A DNA stretch of 64,000 nucleotides, from positions 1-64,000 of the forward strand of contig NZ_NRRU01000013.1 of assembly GCF_016583785.1 (NCBI RefSeq). Direction: 5' to 3'. Every line of letters starts with the position of its first letter. Positions within the stretch are counted from its first letter, which is position 1. This stretch comes from Rubrivivax gelatinosus. Lineage in GTDB: Bacteria; Pseudomonadota; Gammaproteobacteria; Burkholderiales; Burkholderiaceae_C. The translations under genes and the position numbers were made by a program. The notes below the pieces were generated by a model. The model ran no database searches and was not told the origin of the DNA. It was given only the letters and a program-made list of their open reading frames with translations. Shown one piece after another: positions 44,504 through 62,195 of the stretch.

Positions 44504-44525
44504 CGCGGATGGCCTGTCTTACATC

Positions 44526-44547
44526 GGCGCCACGGCGCCTATCCTGC
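44526..44547 (+). other. Predicted oriT core with RP4-like nic site
   Basis: A hairpin GGCGCC-AC-GGCGCC (44526-44539) is followed directly by TATCCTG|C, giving CCTATCCTG with predicted cleavage between 44546 and 44547. The core equals the IncP/MOB_P nic consensus (ATCCTG|Y). It lies 43 bp upstream of the MobC-relaxase operon, as in RP4, and would send the plus strand rightward first. The rest of 44504-44765 contains further small inverted repeats (e.g. GGCAACGGTTGCC near 44688). Confidence 0.7.
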
Positions 44548-44765
44548 ACTCATCTGGACTTCAGTATTGGTCTGGATCGTTGCTTGGCCGGCGCTGGATT
44601 CGGGCCGAGTTCCAGCACGATGAGCGGAGCCCAACAAGAGCGTCGGACGCAGCCCAGCTCGGCGACTTGAAGGAAGGCGGGCCTCGGGCAACGGTTGCCG
44701 CTGTTAAGCCGCTGAACACTCGAGGGGGCCCCCGAAACGAGCAGTGCGGCCGGCACAATGGTCGA

Positions 44766-45209
44766 ATGACTGCCACGTGGACTGTGCGCACAGTCGGCCC
44801 CGACGATGCAGCGAGCATCGCCCGGCATCGTTACTTCCGGGGCGAACCGCAGGAAGACCTCGACGCCTATGCCGCGTGGGTCGTCTCGTGCATCGAGCGC
44901 GGGACATACATCGGCTTCGTCGTTGAAGCCGCAGGCCAGGTGGTGGGCGGCGCGGGTGCCGTCCTGCTCGACTGGGGGCCGACGCGGGGCGAGGCATCCG
45001 GCACTCGCGCACGCATCGTCAACGTCTACACCGAGGTGCCTTGGCGTAAGCAAGGCATCGCCAAGGCGCTCGTCGACAAGGTGATGGACGCCTGCGCCGA
45101 AGCGGGTGTCCGTGTCTTCAGCCTTGCGGCGTCGGCAGAGGCGTCGGCGATGTACCGCGCCCTGGGCTTCGTGCCCTACGCCAACGAGATGATCCTGCGG
45201 CGGGGTTGA
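44766..45209 (+). CDS. GNAT family N-acetyltransferase
   Basis: A 147-aa acetyltransferase with the acetyl-CoA motif VNVYTEVPWRKQGIAKALVDKVMDA and the C-terminal LAASAEASAMYRALGFVPYANEMIL. The substrate is unknown. It lies between oriT and the partition genes, the only plus-strand gene of the leading region. Start ATG 44766 gives a normal-length domain, without a strong ribosome-binding site. Confidence 0.85.
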   Translation: MTATWTVRTVGPDDAASIARHRYFRGEPQEDLDAYAAWVVSCIERGTYIGFVVEAAGQVVGGAGAVLLDWGPTRGEASGTRARIVNVYTEVPWRKQGIAKALVDKVMDACAEAGVRVFSLAASAEASAMYRALGFVPYANEMILRRG

Positions 45210-45442
45210 GGCTCGCCCGCGTCCACGGGCGGCAGACGTTGCCGTACTGCCTGTGTGCGCAACCACCGCGCCTCCGGCGTGCTGCACGCGCAGTGGCGAC
45301 GCTGGAGGACCTTCTGGACTACAAGGCGCCTCGTCGCGTGGCCAAGTAGGGACCAGGCCAACCCAGCACGAGGAACGCCGGCCGACAGTTTCACGGGCCG
45401 CCCTCCGCGTAGGCCGCGCCGGGCCGCAGACTCCGATAACCG

Positions 45443-46441
45443 TTATACGAGGGCGCGGACGAGGCGCAGCTGTGCGAGGCGCCCCATCTCGACCTCTGCG
45501 CGCTGGATGCCGTCCGGCAGCGAGACGAATACGTGTCCGGCGCGCCGCGGCAAGGCGTCGAGGATGACGACGACTTCTTCATCATCCAGCGTGGCCAGCA
45601 ACTGCAGCAGCTCGCGTGGGTCTCGCGCTGACGGCGGCCCGGAGGGAACCGGCTCAGCCTTAGGCTCGGGAACGGGCGGCTCGGGTGGTGGTGGCGTGAC
45701 AGCCGCAGGCGCGGGCGGTTCGGTTGGCGAGCGCCTTGCGGCCGCAAGGGCCGGCGTTCTTGGCGGGTCGGCAGGCAAGCGATCCTGTGGCGGCTCCCCG
45801 GCACGAAGATCGTCCTTGAGCCGTTGCACCGCGGCTCGGGTGACCTCCGCGCCGCTGGCCAGCCAGGCGGCCACGGCGTCGGGCTGTGCCTCGTGCAGAC
45901 GCCTCAGTTCATAGAGTTCAGCCAGCCCCCTGCAGCGGCGGCTGCGGTAGAGCTCCATCACCAGGTCAGGCGGGTCGATCAGGGCTGCAATGAAGGTGAG
46001 ATAGCCCCGTGACTTGCCGAGCCGCCCTGCCACCTCCGCCTGCGTCTCGCCTGCCAGCATCCTCCGCTGGACGAACAGCGCCAGCTCCAGCGGCTGCAGG
46101 TTCTGACGCTGCTCGTTCTCGATGACCTGGTCGTAGCTGTCGGCGGCCAGGTCGACGAAGGCGGGCACGGTCTGGCGCCCGGCCATGCGCGACGCACGCA
46201 GCCGCCGCGCGCCGAAGTTCAGCATCCAGCGGCCAGGCTCGTCGGGATGCGGGCGCACCGACACCGGCTGGCGCACACCGCGCTGGCGAATGGTCTCGGC
46301 GAGTTCGGCCAGCGGCTCGTCGTCGAACTCGAAGCGCGGCTGCTCGGGGTCTTCGTCGATCGTGTCGATCGGAAGTTCCAGCGGTGCGCCGCCGGCCGGT
46401 GCGGGCGCGGCGTCGTCCAACACGGTCAGGTCAAGCGGCAT
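45443..46441 (-). CDS. parB: ParB/RepB/Spo0J family partition protein
   Basis: A 332-aa ParB-like protein: N-terminal nuclease-fold domain with IDTIDEDPEQPRFEFDDE and LNFGARRLRASRMAG, a KorB-type HTH (SYDQVIENEQRQNLQPLELA, AEVAGRLGKSRGYLTFI), a Pro-rich linker (about 225-285) and a C-terminal dimerisation region. It overlaps parA by 11 bases. In an integrative element it probably stabilises the excised circle or controls transfer genes. Confidence 0.9.
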   Translation of the reverse strand: MPLDLTVLDDAAPAPAGGAPLELPIDTIDEDPEQPRFEFDDEPLAELAETIRQRGVRQPVSVRPHPDEPGRWMLNFGARRLRASRMAGRQTVPAFVDLAADSYDQVIENEQRQNLQPLELALFVQRRMLAGETQAEVAGRLGKSRGYLTFIAALIDPPDLVMELYRSRRCRGLAELYELRRLHEAQPDAVAAWLASGAEVTRAAVQRLKDDLRAGEPPQDRLPADPPRTPALAAARRSPTEPPAPAAVTPPPPEPPVPEPKAEPVPSGPPSARDPRELLQLLATLDDEEVVVILDALPRRAGHVFVSLPDGIQRAEVEMGRLAQLRLVRALV

Positions 46442-47243
46442 GGTGCGGCTCCTGCGGGTCGACGATCTCGGCCAGGCGCCGCATCGTCGGCTCGATCTCG
46501 GCCCAGGCGTCGCGCGCGGCGGTCTTCTTCATCTCCCAGAGCAGGTCGCCGCTCGCCTGCGCCTCGGCGACCGCCGAGCGCTTGGGGATGAACGCGAACT
46601 CGCCGGGCTTGTCGGTCAGCGGGATCAGCAGCGACTGGTGGTGGCGCACGATCTCGGCGAAGTTGGCGCGCTGGAACGGCGTGGCCTCGACCATCACCGG
46701 TAGCAGGCCCACCAGTTGCAGCGCCGGGTTCAGCAGCGCGCGGATTTTGTGTACGCCGACGCGCGGGTGGTTCAGCAGGCCCCGCACGCCGTCGATCGCC
46801 TCCTGGTTGAGCTGGATCGGCGACAGCACGAAGTCGGCCGACGCCAGCGCGGCGATGAGGCGGATGTCGGGGTTGGGGTTGGTGTCGACGATGCAGACGT
46901 CGAAGCGGCCGGCCTGCGCCCGCAGGAAGGCGCGCAGGTTGCGTGCGAACGGCGTGTGCTGCGCCGGCTGGCGTTCGAGCCAGAGCAGCGGGTCGGCGGC
47001 CGGCACGAGCACGAAGGGCTCGGCCGGCACGTCGACCTGCGCCTGGGTCAGCAGCAGGTCGGCCGTGACGGATGCCACCAGCGGACGCCTGGAGCGCTGC
47101 AGCACGCTGCTGAGGTTGCCCTGGTGGTCCAGGTCCACCGCGAGCACGCGCCGGCCGGCGCGGCGCAGGTGGTGGGCCAGCAGCGTGGCGACGGCCGACT
47201 TGCCGACACCGCCCTTCTGGTTGGCGAGCACGAGGGTCTTCAT
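46431..47243 (-). CDS. parA: ParA family ATPase
   Basis: A 270-aa partition ATPase with the deviant Walker A motif NQKGGVGKSAVATLLA at the N-terminus, VLAVDLDHQGNLSSVL, and the Walker B-like CIVDTNPNPDIR. No N-terminal HTH, so type Ib-like or phage/ICE type. Overlaps both the DUF7673 gene (four bases) and parB, forming one operon. Confidence 0.92.
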   Translation of the reverse strand: MKTLVLANQKGGVGKSAVATLLAHHLRRAGRRVLAVDLDHQGNLSSVLQRSRRPLVASVTADLLLTQAQVDVPAEPFVLVPAADPLLWLERQPAQHTPFARNLRAFLRAQAGRFDVCIVDTNPNPDIRLIAALASADFVLSPIQLNQEAIDGVRGLLNHPRVGVHKIRALLNPALQLVGLLPVMVEATPFQRANFAEIVRHHQSLLIPLTDKPGEFAFIPKRSAVAEAQASGDLLWEMKKTAARDAWAEIEPTMRRLAEIVDPQEPHHAA

Positions 47244-47626
47244 CGCGAGCCTCCGGCGTCGGGCGTGGCGGCAGCCGGGATGAGGCCCCAGGCGCGCAGC
47301 ACCTGCAGCACGCGGCGCTCGCCGTCGGGCACCAGGCGATGCAGGTCCTGCTGGCCCCAGCGCAGCGCGTCCAGGCAGGCCAGCATGTCGTCGCTGATCT
47401 CGACGTCCAGCATGCGAAGCTCGAACGGATCCCAGCGGAAGGTCGCGCCGTCGTGCACGCTGGCGATGAACCCGGCGATGCGGGCGACCTGGCCCGAGTC
47501 GTGGTGCTCGGCCAGGCGCAGCAGGCGATCGAAGGCCTGAGCGCCCTTCTCGGTCGCCGGCGTGGCGCGCTGCGTGTAAAGGAAGAACGCGTCGATCACG
47601 CGTCTGACGTCGTCGGTGTCGTCCAT
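47240..47626 (-). CDS. Hypothetical protein (DUF7673-like), first gene of the parAB operon
   Basis: A 128-aa helical protein (RRVIDAFFLYTQRATPATEKG, WDPFELRMLDVEISDDMLACLDALRW) of a kind found next to ParA in integrative elements. No catalytic motif is evident. ATG 47626 was chosen because the longer frame upstream is low-complexity. Its stop overlaps the parA start. Confidence 0.65.
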   Translation of the reverse strand: MDDTDDVRRVIDAFFLYTQRATPATEKGAQAFDRLLRLAEHHDSGQVARIAGFIASVHDGATFRWDPFELRMLDVEISDDMLACLDALRWGQQDLHRLVPDGERRVLQVLRAWGLIPAAATPDAGGSR

Positions 47627-47671
47627 GGCAGGCTCCCGCGGCCGCGGCGGCCGCACTGACCTCTGATGGTC

Positions 47672-47721
47672 GGCGGACCTGGCGTCCGCCGACGCGCTGG
47701 ATTCGGCCCCGGATCCAGCGC
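47672..47721 (-). terminator. Two hairpins downstream of the ssb-DUF932 genes
   Basis: GGCGGAC-N5-GTCCGCC (47672-47690) and GCGCTGGAT-N10-ATCCAGCGC (47694-47721) are perfect stems placed 18 bp after the DUF932 stop on the minus strand and before parA's operon. The second matches the arm sequence at 15681-15708. No T-run, so intrinsic termination is uncertain. Confidence 0.5.
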
Positions 47722-47738
47722 CCGGGGCCGGGTGCGGC

Positions 47739-48617
47739 TCAGGCCTTCAGCTTGCGCATCTCCTCGGCCAGCATCCACAGCGCGCGATTCAGGCTCACGG
47801 CGCGGTCGATGCCGTTGACGGCCCGGGTGAGCGTGCGCCGGCCGCTGGCGGCACGGCCGGGCTGGCCACCGTGGATGACGTTCTCCTGCACGCGCTGGAA
47901 GGTCGTCCACAGGTTGTGGCCCAGGTCCTCAGGCCGCCGGGCTTCGACCAGCTGCTCGGCCGTCACCGGCGCCGGCACGTGGCCGCCATCCTCCAGCGCG
48001 CGCTCGCCGAAGCGCAGCGCCAGCGCCGCGGTCGCGAACGCGATCTCCTCGCCGTGCTCCAGCGGCAGCGCCTTCATGGCCTCGGCGTGCTCGTCGACTT
48101 CGTCGAACTCGTCCAGCACCCGGAACGCGCCTTCGATGACCTCGCCGCGCACGTCGCCCTTGTGCGGGATGCGGATGTCGTCGACCACGTCGCCGACGAT
48201 CAGGCCGTTGCAGCAGACGAAGCGGAACAGCCCCGCGAGCATCTGGTACGAACTGCCGCCGTCGTGGCTGTTGATGAGGATGATCTCGTTGACGGTGTCG
48301 CGCGCCCGGGTCTCGGTCGCCTGCACCTGGCCGGCATGGCGCAGCCGCAGCATGTGCTTGGTGAACGCACGCCGGTCCTCAAGCCGGCTGTGGCCCTGCG
48401 CGGCCATGTAGGGCTCGAAGCCTTCGCGCTTCAGGCCGCGCAGCACCTCGATGGTCGGGATGTAGGTGTAGCGCTCGGAACGGCTGACGTGCTTGCCCTC
48501 GGCGAACACCGAAGGCGCCACGGCGCGGATCTGGTCCTCGGCCAGCGGCTCGTGGCTGCGCAGGACGTGGGTGCGGCGGCCGAAACGCGTGGCCAGCGTG
48601 GGATGGATGGTTTGCAT
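47739..48617 (-). CDS. DUF932 domain-containing protein
   Basis: A 292-aa protein of the DUF932 family, common in plasmid and ICE leading regions. Typical segments: VAPSVFAEGKHVSRSERYTYIPT, RARDTVNEIILINSHDGGSSYQM and GLFRFVCCNGLIVGD. The function is not established; it has been linked to phage and plasmid maintenance. It sits 80 bp after ssb and is probably co-transcribed. Confidence 0.88.
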   Translation of the reverse strand: MQTIHPTLATRFGRRTHVLRSHEPLAEDQIRAVAPSVFAEGKHVSRSERYTYIPTIEVLRGLKREGFEPYMAAQGHSRLEDRRAFTKHMLRLRHAGQVQATETRARDTVNEIILINSHDGGSSYQMLAGLFRFVCCNGLIVGDVVDDIRIPHKGDVRGEVIEGAFRVLDEFDEVDEHAEAMKALPLEHGEEIAFATAALALRFGERALEDGGHVPAPVTAEQLVEARRPEDLGHNLWTTFQRVQENVIHGGQPGRAASGRRTLTRAVNGIDRAVSLNRALWMLAEEMRKLKA

Positions 48618-48697
48618 GGTGGTCCTCGTGCAATGGATGTGGACCCCGCGGGGTCCGCGGTGCAGGGGTCCGGCGGGACGGCGCCCGCCGGAAGCGT

Positions 48698-49156
48698 TCA
48701 GGCTTGGGACTGCGGCCGCGCCGGGCGGCGGCCGTTGACGGGCTTGGCGACGGGCGCAGGTGCCGGCGCAGGCGGTTCGGCCCGGCCCTCGCTGCGCGCC
48801 CGGCGCGCCTCGGACTCGGCGCGGCTGTCGAGGTAGTCGATCTCCTCGGCCGTGAACGCCAGGCCGTAGACCTCGGCGCCCTCCGCGTTGCGGTAGTTGT
48901 TGTTGCGCACGCGGCCCGTGACGTTGACGTGGCTGCCCTTGCCCAAGTACTCGGCGGCGTTCTCCGCCTGCCGGCCCCACAGGGTCCACATCAGCGAGGT
49001 CGCCTCCTCCTCGCGGTCTTCGCCGCTGCCGCGGCGGTTGTTGGAGATCACGGTAATCGTCGCCTTCGCGACCCTGCCTTCGCGGCCGTTGACGTACTCC
49101 AGGCGGACAGGGCCGGCCAGATGAGCGTTGCGCTGCTCGACTCGAACGTTTGCCAT
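48698..49156 (-). CDS. ssb: Single-stranded DNA-binding protein-like
   Basis: A 152-aa OB-fold protein: VEQRNAHLAGPVRLEYVNGREG, KATITVISNNRRG, SLMWTLWGRQAENAAEYLGKGSHVNVTGRV and YGLAFTAEEIDYLD. The tail is Pro/Ala/Arg-rich and lacks the acidic DIPF-like SSB tip, so it may not recruit host repair proteins. Its leading-region location is typical for protecting the incoming strand in the recipient. A strong hairpin lies 177 bp upstream of its start. Confidence 0.88.
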   Translation of the reverse strand: MANVRVEQRNAHLAGPVRLEYVNGREGRVAKATITVISNNRRGSGEDREEEATSLMWTLWGRQAENAAEYLGKGSHVNVTGRVRNNNYRNAEGAEVYGLAFTAEEIDYLDSRAESEARRARSEGRAEPPAPAPAPVAKPVNGRRPARPQSQA

Positions 49157-50024
49157 GGCGATGCACTCCGAAAACGAGACGACCAGCGCTGTCCGGGATT
49201 CGGGCTGCTGAAAACTGATCCTCTCGCTCGGACTCCCTCGCTCCCGCCCCTTTGGGGCGGGCGGGGGGTGGGGTGCCTTCGGGAGCAGCGCGAAGCGATG
49301 AGCCGGTTCACCCGGCCCACCGCATTGAAGATCCCCCCACAAGTCCCCCTCGCCCGTCATGGGGGGCTTGTGGGGGGAACGCGGTGGGTCGCAACCGGCG
49401 AGCGCGCGGGTATGGAGAGAGGGCCCGGCGAGCAGCGGCAGGCGTGACAGGCGCAGCCTGGCGCGCCGGACGCCGCCAAGGGCCCGCCCACGGACACGAT
49501 CCCCGGCAGCTACGCGGCCGGCGTGACACCAAGCGAAGCGACTGGCGCGACGGCCGAGCCGGGGCGAGCACTAATCTGCACCCCGGCTGCCCTGCATTCG
49601 GCTGTTGGCTGTCTGGCTGTTCGGCTGCTGGTGTTCGGTCTTCAGCAGCGGCCCGGCGACGGGTTTGGCGGGTGTCCGGGGCGACGATCTGGCCGGTGTC
49701 GCGAAGAGCGCAGCGTCCCGCAGGGCGAAGCGGCGCCGGTCAGTTCGTCGAGCGGGCCGCGCTCACGCGCAGCGGGAGGGCAACCAGGCCCGCGATCCCC
49801 GGACACGGGACAGGGCCGCTGCCCCTCATTTCCGCCGGCGGCAACGCCGGCCTGTTCGTGTTCGCGTCAGGGATGGCTGCCCGGCAGGGGCGAGACACCG
49901 GTAAGCCGGTGGCTCGACGCGAAGCGCAACAGCCCGACCCTGCGCAGCGGGGAGACGCCCAGCCCCAGCGCCACCACCCGCCCCTGCACCGATCCCACCC
50001 CAGCCATGACAGCAGGCACAGGAC
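49157..50024. other. 868-bp stretch without a gene, with a long hairpin at 49333-49377
   Basis: No frame here looks convincingly coding. At 49333-49377 a stem of 17 bp (11 perfect bp CCCCCCACAAG/CTTGTGGGGGG plus five C-G pairs and one T-G) closes an 11-nt loop. It precedes ssb on the coding strand and could be a promoter-forming structure on single-stranded DNA or a strand initiation site. The rest (49400-50024) is GC-rich with scattered short inverted repeats. Confidence 0.5.
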
Positions 50025-51599: not shown

Positions 51600-52739
51600 T
51601 CAGGCGGCCTGCACGCGCCGGAACGCCGCCCGGTAGTCCAAAGGCTCGAGCGCGACGTGTTGCGACACGTCCCCCCGAAGCATGTACAGCCGCGGTGATC
51701 GTCGGAACTCGAAGAGCCGGTAGAGCACGAACTGCTCTCCGGCCTCCTTGCTGAACTCCAGTTCGTTGCGGCTCACGATGAATGCGCTGGCATGGCCCGC
51801 GTTCGTCGTCTTCACCTCGATGTACCGAGGAGCATTCGTCTCTTCGTACGACTGGATATCGAAGCCCGCACCGTCACCCAGGCGATCTGACACCCAGTCG
51901 ACACGTGCGAACAGATCGGGCCTGCCGACCTGGTTCAGCCGCGCCTGCTCGTACTCCAGCACCCACTGCTCGCCAGCCCGTCCGAGCTTTCGGTTCGCCT
52001 GATCCCGGCCGGCGAAGTCGATCTTCCGCGGCAACCGAACCCGGCCCAGATCGGGAACGACCACGTTCTCCACTTGCGGCTGCTCGACCAAGACCGCCTG
52101 GAAGGGCCTGGCGTTCACAGGACGAGCGTCCTCCATCGCATCCGCAATCGTCGCCACCCAGGCGGCGTTCTCAAGCAGAAAACGCTGAACCGCCTTGCGC
52201 AGCAGCAACTGCGTGTTGCCCCGAGGCTTGTAGCCCGGAACGAACGGCAGGTTCAGCGCGTGCAAGACCGCCGAGACGTTCTGGAACTTCAACTCCACCG
52301 ACGCCTTGCTGCGTCCGCGCAAGCGCTGCCGCAACTCGGCATTGAAGTCGGTCTTTCGGTACGCCGAAGCCTGGGCCTCCAGCGCCAGCATCCTGAAATA
52401 GGCCTCGACCGTCGCGTCGACCTCCTCCTCGGACCAGTCCTCCCCGATGCGAACCACCGTGAAGCCCAGCGCCCTCAGCTTTGGCACCACCGTCGCCTCG
52501 CCGCCCGAGAAGTCGGATGCCCGCAACGGCCCTGCATCCGGAACCGCATAGCCGTACGCCACACCCACGATCGCCTTGGAGTCCGCCATCCCGCCGGACT
52601 TTGGGTCGACCACCAGGAAGTCCCGCGAACGGCCGAAGCCGTACTTCTCCAGGAAAACCGCTCGACCCAGCGAGCGGAACTCGTCCAGAGCCGCCTGGAC
52701 CGCCCCAGGGCTCTGCAGCTTCGATAAGGATGCCTGCAC
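51600..52739 (-). CDS. DUF3883 protein, putative PD-(D/E)xK nuclease
   Basis: A 379-aa protein. The N-terminal part (LDEFRSLGRAVFLEKYGFGRSRDFL, DSKAIVGVAYGYAVP) is found in restriction-associated proteins. The C-terminal DUF3883 domain (GRAGEQWVLEYEQARL, GFDIQSYEETNAPRYIEVKTTN) carries the D...ExK pattern of a restriction-endonuclease-like fold. No methyltransferase is adjacent. Start uncertain: GTG 52739 gives the usual N-terminus and TTG 52781 is possible; neither has a good ribosome-binding site. Likely defence-related, by family association. Confidence 0.8.
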   Translation of the reverse strand: MQASLSKLQSPGAVQAALDEFRSLGRAVFLEKYGFGRSRDFLVVDPKSGGMADSKAIVGVAYGYAVPDAGPLRASDFSGGEATVVPKLRALGFTVVRIGEDWSEEEVDATVEAYFRMLALEAQASAYRKTDFNAELRQRLRGRSKASVELKFQNVSAVLHALNLPFVPGYKPRGNTQLLLRKAVQRFLLENAAWVATIADAMEDARPVNARPFQAVLVEQPQVENVVVPDLGRVRLPRKIDFAGRDQANRKLGRAGEQWVLEYEQARLNQVGRPDLFARVDWVSDRLGDGAGFDIQSYEETNAPRYIEVKTTNAGHASAFIVSRNELEFSKEAGEQFVLYRLFEFRRSPRLYMLRGDVSQHVALEPLDYRAAFRRVQAA

Positions 52740-53056
52740 TTCGAGTTCTTGTAAGACGACTGCGCCAGGCCTCCAGCGCAAGTGAACTGCAGCTTACCGT
52801 CATGGCTCCCGGGCACCGCGGCAACCGACTTGACAGCCCTGCCCAGCATCAACTCGGCAGACGACTCGCCACCTCCGCGATCGGTCACAGCGACAGAACC
52901 GCCCTAGGAACAAGCAACCAAAGCCGAAACCTCTCGCAGGGTCGGCGACGACGCCTCAAGACTGAAAGTGGCCATTGACCTCGAATTTCTTGAGCGAAAG
53001 TCACCGAGCCCAAAGCGGTCAGACTACTAGCCAATGGGTCGTCCGTCTTCGAGACG
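52740..53056. other. Divergent intergenic region between the DUF3883 gene and the 1133-aa membrane protein gene
   Basis: About 317 bp separate the two divergent genes. I see no clear sigma-70 promoter or long inverted repeat. Poorly defined starts on both sides mean the true gap may be shorter. Confidence 0.4.
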
Positions 53057-56000
53057 TTGGCTGACCCGTCTGCTGGCGATGTGAGCGACAATCTCGAAAA
53101 GTCAACATGGGGAGTGTGGGGCGTGCATCCATTACGTAGGCTCACACGATCGGCATTGGTTCGAATCGACCACGCGCTTGGCAAGCAGCCCGAGGCAGGA
53201 ACGTCTGATTCGGCACGCTCTGTCGCAGCGCTGGCGGCAGCGCGTATCTCGAAGCTGCGGCGACTCCACGCCGTACACAACGAATACCCCGGCTGGTTCG
53301 CAAGCACCATGCTTTGGGGCGGGTCACACCCGATCATCTTCGCGGCGATCATCGGCGTCGCATGCACGATCTTGGCCTTTGTCTGTTTGCCTGCGCCATA
53401 CCCAGAATGGATAGTCATCACGTTTCCCGACCTCCCCGTCGACTACACACACGCGGCCTTCTTCGGGACCATCTGGACAGTACAGGCAACGCTCATCGCT
53501 CTCGTCTACCCCATCGTCCTGACCTTCGTACCAATCCTGCTGCAGCGGCGGGCATCTTCAAAATTTGCGCTTGGCTTCTACATGCGCGAATCAGCCGTTC
53601 TTCCGGCGGGCACCAGTTCCCTGGTGCTTCTGGTGGTGCTGTCGTTGCAGTACCTTGTCGCGTACTACGTGCCGCGAGAGCTCTTCCTCTTCAGCACCGT
53701 GTTCGATGGGCTTTGGCTGCTGGCTAACATCGGTATGACTGGTTACTTTCTGTTGAAGACCGTGCGCTATGTCGAGGAGGATGTGGGCGAAGCGACCTAT
53801 AGACGCCTATCGCTCGGTTATATCCTTTGGTCAGACCTCCAGGAAGCTGAGACGGCTGCCCTTTATGAGGCAGGCGGCCCCAACATGGGGGACTACCGAG
53901 GCGGCAAGTTGGAACCCCTTGTCCGCACGATGCCGATTACTTCCGGAGAGCCGACTGTTTCGAGGCTCCTCTCCGGCAGAAAGAAGTTAGTCGATGTAGA
54001 CCTGTTCCTTGTGAATCAGGTGGCCCGAGCGTGGGCAAAGCGTGCCGACGTTCATGTCGTGGAACACGGAGCGAAGCGGCGTCCCCCAACCCTGGAACTT
54101 CTGCCGTCGTTCTGGGGCGAATACTCCGGCCAAGTCCACATTGCCCGCGTTTCGGACGGGCCAGACCTAACGCCGCAAGAGCGTGGTGACCTCCTGCAGG
54201 CATACGTTTTCGCCTCACCGCCGAGCCGACTCTTCATTGGCAACACTAAGGGTTTATTGGAAGAACTCGCCAGCGAGGTGCAGTCGCAGTTGGAGCAAGG
54301 TAGGTTCGACGAATCGGCGTTAGCCTTCAAGAAATTGCGCCTGCTGCACGAGGCTTTCCTCCGCAACTCGAACACGGAACGGCACTCGAGTCTCGCAAGC
54401 GCCTCGGCGCCATGGGCTGCTGGACATCGCAGCATCAGTGACTACTGGCTTGACCCTTATAGGCCGCTGTTTGAGGCTGCGGCGAACAAGATTTCCGCCA
54501 ATCAGGCCCTCTGGCGCAACCTGTGCAACCTTCCTGCTGATTTGCTCCGACGTGCGAATCCGCAGGACATGCGGATGACATACGACATCCTGGAGCAGTA
54601 CGAGCTCATCGACCATTTCCTCGGTACGTGGTGGACCCGTGAAGCTCATCGGTCCCAAGCCGTCTTTGCTGCGACTGGGGCGCAGCTCCCTGAACCTATG
54701 GCCTCCGACTACAGGGAAGCCATCACATCCGTTGTCAATGGGTTGAACCTTGCGACAGTGCCGTTCGACGGGAAGGGCGTCGAGGAAGAGCAACGCTGGG
54801 CATCGCGTCTGAGGGCCACAGTGACCTGGATGGCGCACGTCGACATGTGCGCCACGCTGCTAGTACGCGCGGTCCGCCGCGGAGACAAAGTGGCGTCTGA
54901 GTGGTACAGCGATTGCCTGAGTCACTGGCTCTCTGACCGCGGTTACGAATATGGCGCTCGCCGCTTCGCCTACGCGGACGCCCGGCATTCGGTTAACGTA
55001 GGAGAGTTGGACCTTTCATGGCCAAAAGCGCGCCAGCAAATCTCCGCGGCCATTCAACGCGAAGCCACCCTAGATGACGCGGTCCACGTTCTATGGGAAA
55101 GCCTCCAGCGCCATTGGGAGGTCGTACGCTTTTCAAGCTCGCTACTTCTATTACGCTACGAAGTTCACGGCACCTTCCACGAACTCGCCCACCGGGTCGC
55201 GGGCCACGTACTGTCCCTTACGTTCTTCACTCCCGGGCCATCAGCCGATGCTCAGAGCCTGCTTGAGCCAGACCTGCTTCTGACCACGTACCTGAGGATC
55301 TGCTGCCTCGAACCACACTCTTGCGCGCAGTCCTCTTCGCTCGTCGCCCGAGTTCTGCGGAGAGGGAACGATGGCCCCGTCATCAATGGCTGGGTCTACA
55401 CGGGTCACGGTTACCAAAGTAATCTAGAGTCGCAAACAAAGCAGTTCATGACCTTGTTGCTCGCGTCGACCGATGCGGGGAGGGTTGAGCTTACCGATGC
55501 GTCCCGCCTGTGCCGAGCCCCGCATGGGCTGGGCAGGTTGCGTGAGCTGTATAGACTGCTAGCCCTACTCGGCGCCGAGGTGCGACGGCCGGTCCAGAGA
55601 GAACTGCCGCTTGCTGCGGCCGCTCTGCGCGCCAGCTTCGGCTCTCCCGTGCGCCAGGTGTCGCCATTGCTGCCATGGCGAGGCAAGTTGAAGCACCTAC
55701 TACAGGTCGTGAATGCGCAAATTGACGCCGAGCTTCGCAAGGTCTTCGTGCCACCAGACGCCGCGAGAACACTGGTGGCTCGACTCCAGGCGGAGTTGTT
55801 GAATCCAACCGACGGCAAGGCATGGAATGGCCACATGCGGACGGCCGTGGGCGCCGTGACCGTATCCAGAAATGTTTGGTCAGAGCAGTGTCGTCGCTAT
55901 GAGAAGGCCAAATTCCTGCGGCCAACCGAGGATTCGTTCCCTCCCGAGGAAATCCGGCGTTGGGCAAGGCAAATTGCATTGGGTACCCTTCGGTTAGCCC

Positions 56001-56458
56001 TCAGAGAAGCGTTGCAGATTAAAGCGGCTCGTCCGGTCGGAGGCGTCTCCGGCGGCGAGCAATTGCTGAACCTCGCAGCGGCGATTCGTGCCGAGCGATG
56101 GTCACGTGAGACACCTATCGTCCTTGTGCCGCACGGTCCAACCGGTCTCGTAGTCGACGAGATGTACTGGCAAGTCGAGGGCCGCTCAGGGCCACCTGTT
56201 GGCGTTGAGTTCACGGCACGTCAAGGCACGGATGGCCCATTCGCTCATCGGATGGTCAACGGCGCACTCGTCTTCGAGATGCAAACCCCAGATGACCGAA
56301 TCTACCTAGTGCCCGCCGCCTGGTTCGATTGCCTTGTATTTGAGCAGCACGCCGACGGCACGGTGCTGCAGCATGAGGTCCAAGTTCAGGAGCCCGACAG
56401 CGTGCTCATTCAGCTTCATTGGCGCGCTGAGCTTTCTGGGGCATTTAAGCAAGCCTAA
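53057..56458 (+). CDS. Large membrane protein of unknown function (1133 aa)
   Basis: An N-terminal membrane module with about four helices (roughly residues 92-112, 133-163, 184-205 and 212-236) is followed by about 890 predicted cytoplasmic residues, helical in the middle and with a beta-rich C-terminal end (QTPDDRIYLVPAAWFDCLVFE). I find no P-loop, nuclease or kinase motif. GC is below that of the conjugation operon. The start (TTG 53057) is uncertain; GTG 53081 or 53120 are alternatives. It is divergent from a DUF3883 nuclease-like gene and adjacent to an IS. The layout of membrane anchor plus large cytoplasmic part resembles some abortive-infection proteins, but the function is unknown. 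Confidence 0.75.
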   Translation: MADPSAGDVSDNLEKSTWGVWGVHPLRRLTRSALVRIDHALGKQPEAGTSDSARSVAALAAARISKLRRLHAVHNEYPGWFASTMLWGGSHPIIFAAIIGVACTILAFVCLPAPYPEWIVITFPDLPVDYTHAAFFGTIWTVQATLIALVYPIVLTFVPILLQRRASSKFALGFYMRESAVLPAGTSSLVLLVVLSLQYLVAYYVPRELFLFSTVFDGLWLLANIGMTGYFLLKTVRYVEEDVGEATYRRLSLGYILWSDLQEAETAALYEAGGPNMGDYRGGKLEPLVRTMPITSGEPTVSRLLSGRKKLVDVDLFLVNQVARAWAKRADVHVVEHGAKRRPPTLELLPSFWGEYSGQVHIARVSDGPDLTPQERGDLLQAYVFASPPSRLFIGNTKGLLEELASEVQSQLEQGRFDESALAFKKLRLLHEAFLRNSNTERHSSLASASAPWAAGHRSISDYWLDPYRPLFEAAANKISANQALWRNLCNLPADLLRRANPQDMRMTYDILEQYELIDHFLGTWWTREAHRSQAVFAATGAQLPEPMASDYREAITSVVNGLNLATVPFDGKGVEEEQRWASRLRATVTWMAHVDMCATLLVRAVRRGDKVASEWYSDCLSHWLSDRGYEYGARRFAYADARHSVNVGELDLSWPKARQQISAAIQREATLDDAVHVLWESLQRHWEVVRFSSSLLLLRYEVHGTFHELAHRVAGHVLSLTFFTPGPSADAQSLLEPDLLLTTYLRICCLEPHSCAQSSSLVARVLRRGNDGPVINGWVYTGHGYQSNLESQTKQFMTLLLASTDAGRVELTDASRLCRAPHGLGRLRELYRLLALLGAEVRRPVQRELPLAAAALRASFGSPVRQVSPLLPWRGKLKHLLQVVNAQIDAELRKVFVPPDAARTLVARLQAELLNPTDGKAWNGHMRTAVGAVTVSRNVWSEQCRRYEKAKFLRPTEDSFPPEEIRRWARQIALGTLRLALREALQIKAARPVGGVSGGEQLLNLAAAIRAERWSRETPIVLVPHGPTGLVVDEMYWQVEGRSGPPVGVEFTARQGTDGPFAHRMVNGALVFEMQTPDDRIYLVPAAWFDCLVFEQHADGTVLQHEVQVQEPDSVLIQLHWRAELSGAFKQA

Positions 56459-56530
56459 GCCCCCTCTGGCGTCTGTCTAGGACCTTGTTTCACTCTGGTG
56501 GACACTCCGACCTAACCGAAGGAGTTGCAC

Positions 56531-56893
56531 ATGGGTATGCCCGGGCCGCAGATGGTCAAGCGGTATGGATTGGAGTTCAAGCTGGCGGCGGTGGAGTTGT
56601 CCAGTGCGCCAGGGGTGTTGATCAAGGACGTGGCGGAGTCCCTGTGCATCCACCCGTTCATGTTGTCGAAATGGCGCAAGCAGGTGCGCGATGGAGTGCT
56701 CGTGGGTGATGCGCGGAAACTCGATGCGGAGTCTGTTGGAGAGCTTCAGCGGCTGCGCGAGGTCGAGCAGAAGTACAAGCGCCTGCAGATGGAGCATGAC
56801 CTCCTAAAAAAAGCCATCCGGTTTGCTTCGGATCGAAAGCGGAAGTCTTCGCCTTCATCGCAGCAAACCGGAAAACCTACAGCGTCCAAGTGA
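56531..56893 (+). CDS. IS3-family transposase OrfA
   Basis: A 120-aa HTH protein (FKLAAVELSSAPGVLIKDVAES, FMLSKWRKQVRDG) with a leucine-zipper region (ELQRLREVEQKYKRLQMEHDLLKKA). A run of seven A (CTAAAAAAAG near 56805) is a typical -1 slippery site. Slipping there joins the frame to KAEVFAFIAANRKTYSVQV and on into OrfB, giving the full transposase. Confidence 0.88.
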   Translation: MGMPGPQMVKRYGLEFKLAAVELSSAPGVLIKDVAESLCIHPFMLSKWRKQVRDGVLVGDARKLDAESVGELQRLREVEQKYKRLQMEHDLLKKAIRFASDRKRKSSPSSQQTGKPTASK

Positions 56894-57699
56894 TGTGTGC
56901 GCACCTTCGGGTCAGCCGTTCAGGCTACTACGCGTGGACGCGGCGCGAGCCCAGCAAGCGAGCCGTAAAGGAAGCCGAACTGATCGACCACGTGCGTCGC
57001 ATCCACGCGGCTAGCCGCGGGTACTACGGCAGCCCGCGCATCCGGCATGCGCTGCGCCACGAAGGCATCACGGTGGCGCGCAGCACCGTCGCGCGGGTCA
57101 TGCGGCGAGCGCAGTTGCAAGGCCGCAGCGCGCGCCTGTATCGGCGCTCGCGCGTGGGACAGCGGGCCTTCTTCACCAGCATCGCCAACCGTCAGCGGGG
57201 CGTGAAACTCGAGCGCCTGAACCAGATCTGGGTAGGCGACGTGACGTACCTGAGGCTCAACGGCCAGTGGCGTTACCTGGCTGTAGTGATGGACAAGCAT
57301 TCGAGGCGGATCATCGGCTGGAGCCTGGGTTCGCAGCGTGACGCGGCGCTGACCCTCGAAGCCTTCAGCCATGCCTGGCGAGGTCGCAAGCCCGAGAGCG
57401 GACTGATATTTCACAGCGACCGTGGCATCGAATACGCGGCACATCAGTACCGCCAGAAGCTGCAGCAGCACGGTGTCGTGCAAAGCATGAATCGACCGGG
57501 CAAGATGAACGACAACGCGCATATGGAGTCGTTCTTCCACTCGATGAAGAGCGAGCATCTGTACGGGCAGAAGCCGGCCGACGAGGTGGCGCTGCGGAAC
57601 TCGCTGCTCAGCTACATTCAGTTCTACAACCAGCAGCGGCTACATTCGTCGATCGGATACCTGTCGCCTGCAGGCTTCGAGCGGAGCCTTGTTTCATGA
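56890..57699 (+). CDS. IS3-family transposase OrfB (DDE catalytic part)
   Basis: A 269-aa integrase-core protein. The first catalytic Asp is in WVGDVTYLRLNGQWRYLAVV, the second in LIFHSDRGIEYAAHQY, and the Glu in NDNAHMESFFHSMKSE. HTH_21 region at the start (VSRSGYYAWTRREPSKRA). ATG 56890 overlaps the orfA stop, but the functional product is probably made by -1 frameshifting from orfA. All DDE residues present, so the element may be active. Confidence 0.92.
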   Translation: MMCAHLRVSRSGYYAWTRREPSKRAVKEAELIDHVRRIHAASRGYYGSPRIRHALRHEGITVARSTVARVMRRAQLQGRSARLYRRSRVGQRAFFTSIANRQRGVKLERLNQIWVGDVTYLRLNGQWRYLAVVMDKHSRRIIGWSLGSQRDAALTLEAFSHAWRGRKPESGLIFHSDRGIEYAAHQYRQKLQQHGVVQSMNRPGKMNDNAHMESFFHSMKSEHLYGQKPADEVALRNSLLSYIQFYNQQRLHSSIGYLSPAGFERSLVS

Positions 57700-57966
57700 T
57701 GGTGTGTCCACTTTTGAGAAACAAGATCCCTATTTGGAGCCGCCAATCGGGCCATCGCCTAACGTCGAGTCCAGCGACCGCTTAGCGCCTATTATCATGA
57801 GTGCGGCCAGCGAAAGCACCCGCTGCGCAGCGGTCGATGCTTCCAGCGATCCTCCGTCGAAGTTCTAGCCCAATACGGGCAAAGTTCGGCGAATTGACTT
57901 CCTGCCTTCCCACGAAGCCTGCGCGGTCGAGCGCGACGCGAAGACTGCTGAACCACTGGCGAATCC

Positions 57967-59238
57967 TCAGTCGGCGTTCGCCGACGCCGTCTCAATGTAG
58001 TCGGCTACGACCTGCCATCCTCCGCGAAGTTGGGCTTCGCTCTTGCCGACGTAGTGCCCAAGGGTGACGTCGCTGCTCGCCGCATGGTTCAGCATCCGCT
58101 TAAGCGAAGCACCTGACACGAGCTCTTCCGCGATGCTCGCAAAGGTCGCACGCAGACCATGGCCCTGCACGGCTGTCTTGGCTCTCTCATTGATCCACGC
58201 CAGTGTCTTCCGGGCATCGACGATCGGAAACAGCGGCTCGTCGAGCTCGCGGCTTGTGCAGTGCAGCTTCGCGATTTCAATTGCTTGTCTGGACAACAGC
58301 AGCTTATGGTCGCTCCTGTTCTTCGTGTCCCGCAAGACGATCTTGCCTGCATCGAGGTCCACGTCACCTACTTTGATTGGCTTGTATCCGTGGCGCTTGC
58401 TCCCATGGATTTCGCCGCCCCGGCACCCCGTGAGCAACTGAAAACGGTAGTAGTCGGCCGCGACCCTGGACGGCGCGATGGTCGCTGCCCGCCACCACGC
58501 GCCCAAACGCTCTGGTGGGATGGGCGCAGGGTTGCCTTTAGCGGGCGCCAGCACGATACGGTCTCGACCTGCGGTGTCGCGACCCAACGGGTTTTCCGGT
58601 ACCACGACGCCATGCCACCGCAGCACTGCGCGCAGCACCTGCATCGCATAGACCGCCTGGCGCTCGGATCGCTTGATGACGGCCGCATGCACGCCCCGAA
58701 TGTCATCGGCGGTGAGGCTTGAGAGCAGCTTCTCTGCAATCGGATACAGCTCACCATCGGTGAACCTCCTGCCCGACTTCGAGGTCTTGCCGGGCTCCAC
58801 CATCGCAAGGTAGTCGGCCTTCGTGCGTGCCTTCAATGGCAAGCCATCCTTTGCGCGACGCTTCTTTTCGACGTACTCACGAACGGCCTTCTGCAGCGTC
58901 AGTCCATCTTGGAGGCTGGCCTGCTCTTGTGCCACCACCTCGGCGCGCAACCTCGACTCCTCCCGTGCTGGCCAGTCCACACCATCGCGCGCAAGTGCCC
59001 GGATGCGCGCCGCCTCGGCACAGGCAGCGGCCAGCTTCATCTGGCCGGCCCCTTCACCGTACTCCTGCGGCAGCCGGTACTGGCGCTCGACCGCTGCCCC
59101 CTTGACCGTGTAGCGAACCAGGAGCGTACGAACCCCGTCCGGAGCGATGCGCAACTGCAAGCCGCGGTCGATAGTGAGCTTGTAGGCCTGAGCGCGAGGT
59201 CTATGGGCGTCGATCGCTCTGACGGTCAAGAGGGGCAT
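57967..59238 (-). CDS. Tyrosine recombinase/integrase (P4-like, DUF4102), associated with tRNA-Asn
   Basis: A 423-aa integrase with DUF4102 arm-binding domain (PLLTVRAIDAHRPRAQAYKLTI, LRIAPDGVRTLLVRYTVKG). The catalytic domain has its first Arg in LLTGCRGGEIHG, the region VLRDTKNRSDHKLLLS, and HGLRATFASIAEELV (HxLR), followed by LNHAASSDVTLGHYVGKSEA, with the catalytic Tyr in GHYVG. ATG 59238 is chosen for GGAG seven bases upstream; the longer frame is unsupported. It reads away from the tRNA-Asn fragment at 59399-59445, its probable target. Confidence 0.92.
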   Translation of the reverse strand: MPLLTVRAIDAHRPRAQAYKLTIDRGLQLRIAPDGVRTLLVRYTVKGAAVERQYRLPQEYGEGAGQMKLAAACAEAARIRALARDGVDWPAREESRLRAEVVAQEQASLQDGLTLQKAVREYVEKKRRAKDGLPLKARTKADYLAMVEPGKTSKSGRRFTDGELYPIAEKLLSSLTADDIRGVHAAVIKRSERQAVYAMQVLRAVLRWHGVVVPENPLGRDTAGRDRIVLAPAKGNPAPIPPERLGAWWRAATIAPSRVAADYYRFQLLTGCRGGEIHGSKRHGYKPIKVGDVDLDAGKIVLRDTKNRSDHKLLLSRQAIEIAKLHCTSRELDEPLFPIVDARKTLAWINERAKTAVQGHGLRATFASIAEELVSGASLKRMLNHAASSDVTLGHYVGKSEAQLRGGWQVVADYIETASANAD

Positions 59239-59398
59239 GCTCGGGCTCCGTGTCCGACAGGTGTCCGAAAAATCGCTGGCTCGCATGCTATCAGTCGGGA
59301 CCACCTGGCACAAGGAAGTCGACCTAACTTATTGATATGAATGAACTTTCAGAATTCCAAGAAGATGCCGGGACGTCTCACAAAGTGCTGCTTGTACC

Positions 59399-59652: not shown

Positions 59653-60348
59653 TCAGCGCAGCAGCGCCTTGATGCGAGCCCACAGCGCAGCCTTGGACAC
59701 CGTGGTCATGGCCATCGCCTGCATGCACTGGTCCAGTCGATGAGGCCGTGCACGCAGGTCCTCCACGGCACTGGCCAGATCGGCGGCCACGCTGTCGCCG
59801 TAGGCAGCTTGGGCCTTGGCCATGGCCTGTTTCATCAGAGCCCTGGGCGGCGCCATCATCGCCAGGTCGATCAGGTCACGGCTCATCACGGCATCGTCGC
59901 GCCAGCGGTCGGAGTTGGCCAACAGTTTGCTCGCCACCATGTCCCGCGGTGTCAGCGTGGCTACGCCGCACTGGCGATCGCCCGGGCCAGGGGCGTCAAG
60001 TTCGATTCGGCCTTCGAGCACGATCTCGAACTTGATGTCGGCGCCCTCGACCCTCAGCGTGGTGCGAATGCCGTACTGGTCCGCGCGCAGCTCACGGGTC
60101 TGGTTCAGCGCGCGGTCGGCACGGGTGATGGAACGCATGCCATCCGGGCCAGTCAGTCGCTGGCGCAGGTGGCGATAGCCCTCGACCCTGGAAACAACGA
60201 AGCCGATGTCGACCGACTCGCGATATTCGCCGTAGCGCAGCGCCATGGCGCTGCCGCCGCCGAAGAGGCAGGCGTTCGCCGCCAGCAGATCGGCGTCCAG
60301 CGCCTCCAGGACGGACGCGATGCGGCGGTGATGTGTGCGCTCAAACAA
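59653..60348 (-). CDS. AbiEii/AbiGii-type nucleotidyltransferase with a changed active-site residue
   Basis: A 231-aa nucleotidyltransferase-like toxin of the AbiEii family. The GS-type motif is LFGGGSAMALRYGEYRESVD. The expected D-x-D reads VDIGF, with Gly in place of the second catalytic Asp, so activity is doubtful. The downstream KFEIVLEGRIEL and TPRDMVASKLLANSDRW segments are family-like. TTG 60348 is taken as start: GGAGG is eight bases upstream and it overlaps the HTH gene stop (TTGTTTGA), indicating coupling. Confidence 0.8.
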   Translation of the reverse strand: MFERTHHRRIASVLEALDADLLAANACLFGGGSAMALRYGEYRESVDIGFVVSRVEGYRHLRQRLTGPDGMRSITRADRALNQTRELRADQYGIRTTLRVEGADIKFEIVLEGRIELDAPGPGDRQCGVATLTPRDMVASKLLANSDRWRDDAVMSRDLIDLAMMAPPRALMKQAMAKAQAAYGDSVAADLASAVEDLRARPHRLDQCMQAMAMTTVSKAALWARIKALLR

Positions 60349-60877
60349 GCAGCCGCCCTCCGCCCAGTTGGTCCACCAGGGCCTGGAGCAATGCACGTTC
60401 TGCCGCCTCCATGCTGGACGGGTCGATGTGCCGCCAGTTGCGCTCGTACAGGTTCAAGGCATCTGCCGGGCTGACATCGTCGACGCCCTGAAGTTGCCAG
60501 GCTAGACGCTTGAGCTGCGGAAAGTCCACCAAGCGCACACGATCAGGCAGGCCGGCGGCTCCCGAAGTGGCCAGACTTGCCTGCGGATCGCGTAGTTCCA
60601 ACTGCAGCCCCACGGCATCGATGGCGCTCAAGTAGGCGCCCATGGTCACCGAAGGCTCGCCGCGCTCGATGCGGCGCAAGGTAACCCGCGACATGCCAGC
60701 AGCCTCTGCGGCCACCGTGGCGCTGACTCTCTGGCTCTCTCGATGGGCACGGATGCGCTCGCCGATGGCCCGGAGCCGGATCGCGAGAACGTCCCCGCCA
60801 TCCTGGATGCCGATGCGAGCCCGGCAGCCGAGGCCGGAACCGCTCGACCGCGAGTTCGCCTGCGCCGCACCCGCCAC
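60341..60877 (-). CDS. HTH (Xre-type) antitoxin-like protein paired with the AbiEii-like gene
   Basis: A protein of up to 178 aa. Helix-turn-helix: LRAIGERIRAHRESQRVSATVAAEAAGMSRVTLRRIERGEPSVTMGAY, abbreviated here by its landmarks AAEAAGMSRVTLRR and ERGEPS. A C-terminal part follows with NLYERNWRHIDPSSMEAAERALL. The N-terminus is unclear: no ATG lies in frame near the HTH, and GTG 60877 is the best candidate. The 5' end abuts the flotillin remnant on the other strand, so the gene may have been truncated on arrival or may have displaced the flotillin 5' end. Confidence 0.75.
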   Translation of the reverse strand: MAGAAQANSRSSGSGLGCRARIGIQDGGDVLAIRLRAIGERIRAHRESQRVSATVAAEAAGMSRVTLRRIERGEPSVTMGAYLSAIDAVGLQLELRDPQASLATSGAAGLPDRVRLVDFPQLKRLAWQLQGVDDVSPADALNLYERNWRHIDPSSMEAAERALLQALVDQLGGGRLLV

Positions 60878-60913
60878 GAGGCCTTGGCACGGGCAAATGG
60901 CGCGGCGCCCGCG

Positions 60914-62195
60914 TTGATACAACGGCAGCGGTCGACCAAGGAGACGGCCTTCGTCCGCACAGGCCTGGGCGGGCAGAAGGTGATCATGGACGGCGGCGCG
61001 ATCGTGCTGCCGGTCTTCCACGAGCGTGTGCTCGTGAACGTGAACACGCTCAAGCTCGAAGTCGTGCGCCGCGAACGCGAGAGCCAGGACCGACAAGCAG
61101 TTCTTCAACCCGAACAACGCCTTCGACGCCGAGGGTCTCACCCGGCTCACCGAGCAGACCGAAGCGCGGCGCAAGCAGCGCAACGACGTCGAGCAGGACA
61201 CCGAGGTCCAGGTGCGGGCCAAGAACCTCGATGCCTCGCGCCAGAAGCTCACCATCGAGAAGGATCAGGAGTTCGCCTCGCTCGGCCAGCGGCGCGAGAT
61301 CGAGGTCACGCGTGCCGAGCAGTCGGCGCTGATCGCCTCGCAGCAGGCAGAGCGCAGCCGCGAAGCCGAGGCCGCCAAGATCGAGGCCGAGCAGCAGGTC
61401 AGCCAGAAGCGCATCGAAGCCGAACGCGAGATCAAGGCCGCGGAGATCGAGAAGAACCTCGCCATCCAGATGCGCGAGATCGAACTCGAGCGCAAGACCG
61501 AGATGCAGCGCGCGGAACAGCGCAAGCAGGTGGAGATCGCGCGCCAGGACACGCAGATCGCGATCGCCAACAAGTCGCGCGAGCAGTCCGACGCCGACGC
61601 CGCGGCCAACCTGGCCCGGGCGGACGCGGTCAAGGCGGAAGAAGCCGTCACGACAGCGCGCCAGGTCGCGGTGGCCGAGCGCGAGAAGGACATCCAGCTG
61701 ATCGAGGCCTCCAAGGAAGCCGAGCAGAACGCCATCGCCGTCAAGGTGTCCGCCGCGGCGGAGAAGGAGGCCGCACTCGATCGGGCCGAGGCCGTGACCA
61801 TCGAGGCGCAGGCCCGCCAGGCCGCGGCGCTGGCGGATGCCGAAGGCCGACGCGCGATCAACGAAGCCCTGAACACGCTCTCGGCCGCGCAGATCGACCT
61901 CCAGGTGCGGACCCTGCTGCTGCAGCAACTGCCGCAGATCCTCGAGCAGGCCGTGCGGCCGATGGAGAAGATCGACTCCATCCGGATCTTCCAGGTCGGC
62001 GGCATGCCGGGCTCACCTTCGGGCGCCGATGCCGCCGGGACGGCCCCGCACGCGGGCGCCACCTTTCCGGAGCAGGTGATGAACTCGGCGCTGCAATACC
62101 AGATCGCCAAGCCGATCGTCGATGCGGTGATGAAGGATGCCGGTCTGTCGAACGAAGGCATCACCGGTGTCGCCCATGCCTTGTCGGCATGCTGA
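60914..62195 (+). pseudogene. Flotillin (YqiK-like) gene remnant
   Basis: The first piece (to about 61085) encodes ETAFVRTGLGGQKVIMDGG and FHERVLVNVNTLKLEV, the start of the band-7 domain without the N-terminal membrane helix. At about 61085 the frame shifts and the sequence continues with FFNPNNAFDAEGLTRLTEQT, which normally lies about 100 residues further on. The core of the band-7 domain is therefore missing. The long Glu/Ala coiled coil and the flotillin C-terminus (LPQILEQAVRPMEKIDSIRI) follow intact to 62195. A non-functional remnant with 5' loss and an internal deletion. Confidence 0.8.

Follow-up and report, generated by a model that had tools for sequence, protein, structure and literature searches.

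The subject of this study is a gene for a large membrane protein, which we call MEM, in a window of 64,000 nucleotides from Rubrivivax gelatinosus (contig NZ_NRRU01000013.1, positions 1 to 64,000 of the forward strand). An earlier examination of the DNA, referred to here as the sequence-only reading, had described a back-to-back pair of open reading frames (ORFs), a DUF3883 nuclease-like gene on the reverse strand (51600-52781) and a gene for a 1133-residue protein with four membrane helices on the forward strand (53057-56458), adjoining an insertion sequence (IS) and an integrase in a position typical of defence cargo. Both ORFs are present and divergent, and the larger one is intact; its start is probably the GTG at 53123 rather than the TTG at 53057, so that MEM spans 53123-56458 (+) and encodes 1111 rather than 1133 residues. 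Directly 3' of MEM lies an IS3-type element (56466-57736, +), recognized from its ORFs, the Pfam rve domain and blastn; its terminal repeats, near 56480 and 57729, are imperfect and agree at 19 of 25 bases. Beyond it are the tyrosine integrase of the island (57967-59313, -; Pfam Arm-DNA-bind_3, E = 8e-9, and Phage_integrase, E = 5e-5) and an AbiEii nucleotidyltransferase gene (59653-60396, -; Pfam, E = 2e-20; PADLOC AbiEii, E = 9e-71), a further piece of defence-type cargo. The guanine plus cytosine (G+C) content is approximately 0.70-0.72 at 44-50 kb of the window and drops to 0.59-0.60 at 53-57 kb, which fits foreign cargo.

The predicted MEM protein has three parts. Hydropathy in 14 members and the structural model place four membrane helices near the N-terminus (53333-53752, +; approximately residues 71-89, 118-140, 157-177 and 187-209), as had been noticed from the sequence; hydropathy of the window protein puts the hydrophobic stretches at approximately 71-89, 122-140, 157-175 and 187-205. 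The N-terminal 250 residues, which include these helices, are the most conserved, with a mean pairwise identity of 45% compared to 32.5% in the C-terminal domain. Across 14 main-family sequences, the columns that never vary are concentrated in the second transmembrane helix (TM2; W118, Q121, T123, A126, V128, Y129, P130 and V132), which carries the motif W-x-x-Q-x-T-x-x-A-x-V-Y-P-x-V, and in TM4 (W198 and N202), and no column stays fully invariant once distant members are added. Basic residues mark the loop following TM2 but not the TM1-TM2 loop, and by the positive-inside rule this would put the long C-terminal part in the cytoplasm. In the model, the middle region (53753-55723, +; residues 211-867) consists of a short beta-containing segment followed by helical repeats, for which structural alignment with VIA-align matched solely generic helical-repeat proteins and listed no specific relative. 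The C-terminal domain (55724-56455, +; residues 868-1111) is predicted to adopt the HK97 major-capsid/encapsulin fold, both in the model of the window protein and in a separate model of the corresponding domain from a distant relative (locus L022; L numbers denote the loci compared).

The sequence-only reading had called the cytoplasmic part motif-less, and the capsid-like domain is what that description missed. The AlphaFold model of the window protein, built with 14 sequences, had a predicted local distance difference test score (pLDDT) of 70.3, and contained the helical-repeat middle and a mixed alpha/beta C-terminal domain. When candidates for this model were aligned with VIA-align, 32 of the 50 rows listed were, by title, capsids, encapsulins or engineered shells aligned to residues ~875-1110, the best being 2e0z (Z 10.7 over 190 residues, root-mean-square deviation 4.1); most of the remaining rows paired helical-repeat proteins with the middle region. 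The L022 domain, only 15% identical to that of the window and folded alone, gave a pLDDT of 85.2 and a predicted template modelling score (pTM) of 0.80. Foldseek returned 119 matches to it in the PDB at E<=0.001 (best 3.6e-8), and the best 50 of these were all encapsulins, phage or satellite capsids, or engineered shells. VIA-align scored this domain at Z 12.3 over 214 residues against the procapsid of phage HRP29, 12.2 against T5 and 11.3 against the HK97 prohead, with Z of at least 8 in 443 of 992 chains; fold families missing from the VIA-align lists were not counted as excluded. A viral library yielded a further 148 matches at E<=0.001, and the named rows listed were capsid or head proteins, except for two 'uncharacterized' proteins, one 'Gp15' and one 'structural protein'. 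Models of two different sequences (Z 10.7 for the window, 12.3 for L022) match the HK97 topology of N-arm, E-loop, long spine helix, and P- and A-domains, and the assignment of an HK97 major-capsid fold to residues 868-1111 of MEM is, for the main family, well supported by modelling.

For this domain, dN/dS (the ratio of nonsynonymous to synonymous substitution rates) was estimated in seven pairs of sequences, which are not mutually independent. Values of 0.07-0.27 indicated purifying selection, and positive selection on the HK97 part was not seen in these pairs. When L020 or L021 was compared to L022, third-position identity fell from ~80% to ~60% across the HK97 part (codons ~850-1140), and dS was 0.79-0.80 there compared to 0.31-0.36 elsewhere, a pattern suggesting that past recombination may have swapped the C-terminus. 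Because the first 75 codons are likewise lower in third-position identity (67-71%), this evidence of exchange is suggestive only.

Comparison with a Polaromonas metagenome-assembled genome (locus L012) indicated that MEM moves on its own. The two loci share 79% DNA identity over 52970-56465 of the window, with homology resuming at 57737-57788 (blastn); the MEM proteins are 77% identical, and there is no PDC-S36-type nuclease, the family of the window's DUF3883 protein, within the 10-kb flanks of the Polaromonas copy. Since the match ends between the two genes and the flanks lack the nuclease, MEM appears to travel alone; since homology resumes at 57737, the IS3-type element, missing from the Polaromonas copy, was inserted afterwards, and the conserved unit is MEM together with ~150 bp upstream (52970-53122, +; kept in the Polaromonas copy by blastn and alignment). 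The upstream reading frame is closed by stop codons in the Polaromonas copy, whose ORF opens at a codon matching GTG 53123, which is why we place the start of MEM there; from this matching start the protein has 1111 residues in both genomes.

The sequence-only reading had left open whether the nuclease gene and MEM form a two-gene system or two single-gene ones, and the distribution of the two families favors the latter. A tblastn search with the nuclease against the fetched loci, whose flanks were of unequal length and in some cases short (L013, L019 and L020), found only one further MEM neighbour, on the Paracoccus plasmid p420573 (L053), so that adjacency is confined to the window and this plasmid. 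There the nuclease is 39% identical, lies in tandem with MEM rather than divergently, and is separated from it by IS5, and the pair sits in a Tn7-like element that also holds a type I restriction-modification (R-M) system. Four loci outside this search (L056-L059) have no DUF3883 gene in their annotation tables. Among 300 genomes of the order, MEM occurred in 2 and PDC-S36 in 19, the window's genome being counted in both and being the only one with both. Of 21 MEM-bearing genomes or records, three had a strong and two a weak PDC-S36 match anywhere, which fits two single-gene systems. No partner gene recurs across the main MEM family, among ORFs of at least 70 residues or among small ORFs within 1.8 kb. 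Neighbours are shared throughout only by near-identical Cupriavidus loci; apart from these, the clusters in common comprise ABC-type ATPases, aldehyde-dehydrogenase-like proteins and pairs, and the small ORFs within 1.8 kb have counterparts in just two comparisons, L020 with L021 and the window with L012. Divergent upstream ORFs do recur in a plasmid subfamily (L051, L057, L058 and L059), where they are probably part of a shared plasmid backbone. We conclude that MEM and PDC-S36 are two independent genes.

A scan of genome collections with three sequences produced 16 MEM loci. With the window's own genome included, MEM was present in 2 of 300, 2 of 369 and 3 of 398 genomes, which makes it a rare family in these samples. 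Plasmid records with a relative numbered 2 when searched with the window protein and 301 when searched with the L015 member, and ten plasmid regions among them were examined. Most members have 1040-1200 residues and align along their length; L013 is cut by a contig end, the Cupriavidus members L003, L024 and L025 are cut short, and L027 is fragmentary. At full length, the enterobacterial plasmid subfamily aligned with the main family over 996 columns (E = 1e-37). Some of its members are on plasmids from clinical samples, where they may affect phage sensitivity. The MEM protein had no match in Pfam, NCBIfam, PADLOC, PHROGs or the PDB sequences, and the 16 MEM rows scanned in Pfam and PADLOC gave only uninformative, chance-level matches and no described transmembrane effector family. 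Phage genomes and viral contigs held no MEM relative, though two prophages carry one.

Examination of the gene neighborhoods, within ~7 kb of MEM and with informative-looking neighbours scanned with PADLOC, covered 18 main-family loci with flanks, and in 7 of them established defence genes adjoin MEM or lie near it. At L015, the BREX genes PglX, PglZ and BrxL are followed by MEM and then by a PDC-S58/ApeA-like gene, and at L022 MEM lies amid two helicases, one DrmD-like and accompanied by a type IIG/DrmMI-like methylase, the other DruE-like. LmuA and LmuB are near MEM at L013, type I R-M genes flank it on both sides at L010, Gabija is ~4 kb away at L004, and at L019 MEM begins 4 bp downstream of the end of a DrmMI-like gene; at L053, type I R-M genes are at or near it by annotation. 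The window MEM has PDC-S36 and AbiEii as its own defence-type neighbours, and the proposed cargo position is supported for both genes of the divergent pair. Tn7-like transposition genes occur at L010, L014 and L053. One MEM-bearing prophage (L023) has terminase, integrase and primase genes, the terminase ~7 kb from MEM with integrase and methyltransferase genes between, and the other (L011) has a CI-type repressor and a primosomal protein. One plasmid relative adjoins genes annotated like a CBASS operon. On the Escherichia coli IncF plasmid pCTXM15_020026 (L056, 1-13173), HsdR, an S-4TM effector, a PDC-S06 ATPase, VapBC, a MEM relative and CcdAB lie close together in what looks like a defence hotspot. 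On a Ciceribacter plasmid (L004, 8495-19462), a MEM relative near Gabija is placed between two uncharacterised genes and a gene for a 1335-residue protein with an LmuA-like N-terminus, possibly an undescribed operon.

Taken together, a role of MEM in defence is probable. The reading that we favor, at a probability of roughly 0.45, is that MEM is a stand-alone mobile anti-phage protein, a membrane effector whose capsid-like domain detects phage capsid protein or assembles together with it. The four-helix N-terminal unit would be the likely effector, joined by the helical-repeat region to the cytoplasmic HK97-fold domain. During infection, this domain would bind or co-assemble with the new major capsid protein, scaffold or procapsid of the phage; such contact would cluster or rearrange the membrane unit, the inner membrane would be breached, and infection would be aborted before virion release. 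With the capsid as presumed trigger and membrane damage as presumed output, a sensor and an effector in one protein seem to us the most economical reading.

Several observations weigh against this proposal. Foldseek with the full-length window model gave no PDB match at E<=0.001, and hidden Markov model (HMM) searches with the C-terminal domain found no capsid family. Comparison of the domain with encapsulins and phage capsids by hhalign was also negative, but the positive control of encapsulins against capsids failed as well, which makes this comparison uninformative. The link to capsids is therefore one of structure only, and the profile and structure searches that the sequence-only reading had suggested for the large protein yielded a fold and no sequence family. 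The domain of the plasmid subfamily, taken alone, aligned weakly to the main family (probability 5.6%), and the L019 member, which is beside a defence gene, has only 916 residues and is without most of the HK97 part. The neighbours scanned with PADLOC were picked by eye, without a random-locus control; no complete known defence system was present among the scanned proteins at L012 and L014, or, by eye only, at L016, L017, L018, L020, L021 and L026.

Two alternatives keep the capsid-like domain and assign it another task. Retroviral Gag-derived restriction factors offer a conceptual parallel for the first, in which the tethered HK97 domain is built into procapsids as they grow and, being a faulty subunit, directly stops the head from assembling, the helices being a mere anchor and cell death not being needed. 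The predicted fold of the C-terminal domain and the apparent exchange of the C-terminus in the comparison of L020 or L021 with L022, which would be expected of a part matched to different phages and is suggestive only, agree with such a poison. Conservation is highest in the N-terminal 250 residues, beyond what an anchor should need, and the 600-residue helical middle is left without a role; we regard this explanation as unlikely. We hold a second alternative to be equally doubtful. HK97 proteins form capsomers, and the domain could serve only to bring the chains together as pentamers or hexamers encircling a membrane pore that responds to some other trigger, such as DNA ends, ions or a phage tail event. 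Four membrane helices per chain, and an order of parts that is constant along the alignments except in the shorter L019, would suit such a device. Against it, no other sensor was identified, and the helical middle had no specific relative in the VIA-align list.

It is rather improbable that MEM has no part in defence and is instead a transporter or envelope-stress protein. This idea draws on the annotation of one plasmid relative (L052) as 'chromate transporter' and of another matched place, in Pantoea, as 'MFS transporter', and on the conserved polar residues in TM2. The sequence-only reading had named a clear match of the large protein to a known transporter or metabolic family as a ground for refutation, and no transporter family matched in Pfam at E<=0.1 for the 16 rows, which included L052 and not the Pantoea place; the two labels are without family support where tested, and we rejected them. 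A protein with just four helices in 1100 residues, a capsid-like fold, evident mobility and a frequent location near defence systems is also not what a transporter would lead one to expect. Least credible of all is a two-gene system of DUF3883 nuclease and MEM, which we rejected: the divergent neighbours of the window and the second co-location in Paracoccus p420573, where the arrangement differs, stand against a nuclease not found beside the other relatives checked, a genome overlap limited to the window's own genome, and a Polaromonas module that ends between the genes.

The nuclease gene itself is a known entity. Its product matched the PADLOC candidate profile PDC-S36 over positions 4-279 of 280 (E = 4e-99) and Pfam NOV_C (PF13020; E = 4e-21), in agreement with the DUF3883 assignment of the sequence-only reading. 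The start codon of the gene is uncertain, with homology from approximately residue 15-19. Residues E271, D308, E322 and K324 are invariant in all 11 aligned sequences, and a twelfth sequence outside that alignment (L032) carries the same four; this conservation fits a putative PD-(D/E)xK nuclease. The product matches PDC-S36 along the entire profile, and the long form found here (also at L034, L036, L037 and L055) adds an N-terminal region with weak likeness to ScoMcrA (residues 22-110 to 5zmm, E = 0.006) and a match to a type IV enzyme profile (E = 7e-5). Relatives occurred in 1,215 of 72,556 plasmid records, with 61% identity the best among the matches listed. The gene is thus an already known candidate, not a new one, and a separate single-gene candidate from MEM. 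Relatives are widespread on enterobacterial and Acinetobacter plasmids, one of them (L055, 4481-7134) near an aminoglycoside resistance gene.

Mobilisation- and maintenance-type genes at 42994-49360, with a relaxase-like ORF recognized by eye, a ParA-type ATPase and a single-stranded DNA-binding (SSB) domain, point to an integrative element, of which the region studied here would be the cargo end. An ORF for 539 residues at 40031-41650 (-), in a stretch of 52% G+C within a region of 70%, is likely foreign cargo; it had no PHROG match, and its family was not recognised by eye. Beside the integrase, the AbiEii gene and an overlapping helix-turn-helix ORF (59653-61255, -) form a probable AbiE-type toxin-antitoxin pair.

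Returning to the favored reading of MEM as a capsid-reading membrane effector, we tentatively place it, with somewhat less assurance than the reading itself, as an immune protein built on a viral capsid fold: a membrane-anchored relic of a phage capsid, kept in cells, plasmids and prophages, that joins or reads the capsid assembly of an invader and turns it into membrane failure or assembly arrest. If the tail does read or jam capsid assembly, host immunity would be reusing viral architecture to recognise a component that a virus has little freedom to alter.

Comparison with known systems sets MEM apart from each of its nearest counterparts. Encapsulins are shell proteins with cargo operons. 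They share the predicted fold of the MEM C-terminal domain, whose best PDB matches include 2e0z, EncA and the Brevibacterium encapsulin, but they are stand-alone proteins of ~30 kDa, whereas MEM has 1111 residues, four membrane helices and no neighbour that recurs across its main family. Among described membrane versions, the nearest that we found is the Family 3 encapsulin of Mesorhizobium biosynthetic clusters, which carries 4-5 transmembrane segments as a C-terminal extension (PMC8346489); MEM has the opposite order of parts and a different context. Phage major capsid proteins of the HK97 lineage share the fold predicted for this domain, with T5, T7, HK97 and T4 among the VIA-align rows for the L022 domain, but in MEM the domain is fused to membrane and helical parts, and MEM has no PHROG capsid match and, in the loci inspected by eye, lies outside any head-gene operon of portal, protease and terminase. 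It is therefore neither an encapsulin, by size and membrane helices, nor a phage head gene, by context. Compared to the core components of BREX and DISARM, MEM is not a general member of either, as it occurs in just one BREX and two DISARM-type loci of 18. Like S-4TM and other membrane effectors, MEM has four helices, a cytoplasmic regulatory part and defence-rich neighbourhoods, and a gene annotated as an S-4TM effector is near one plasmid relative; it differs in having no transmembrane effector family match (Pfam and PADLOC, 16 rows) and in being a single gene with a large regulatory region of its own.

The sensor domain of CapRel is not known to have a capsid fold, whereas the candidate sensor of MEM is itself capsid-folded and its candidate effector is a set of membrane helices. 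According to PMC9712102, CapRel is activated by direct binding of newly made capsid protein and pyrophosphorylates tRNAs, and capsid-linked findings for Lit, PifA, Pycsar and CBASS are discussed there; the trigger that we propose for MEM, newly made major capsid protein, is the same as for CapRel, Lit and PifA (PMC9712102). A literature search, which mostly did not extend to subscription papers, brought up no defence protein described with this architecture, including in PMC12458937, PMC13190303, PMC8346489 and PMC9712102. The HK97-fold cellular proteins in that literature were encapsulin compartments or prophage capsids, and none was found as a membrane immune protein. The new element would be a defence protein that itself carries the capsid fold, which, if true, would make MEM a prokaryotic counterpart of capsid-derived restriction factors.

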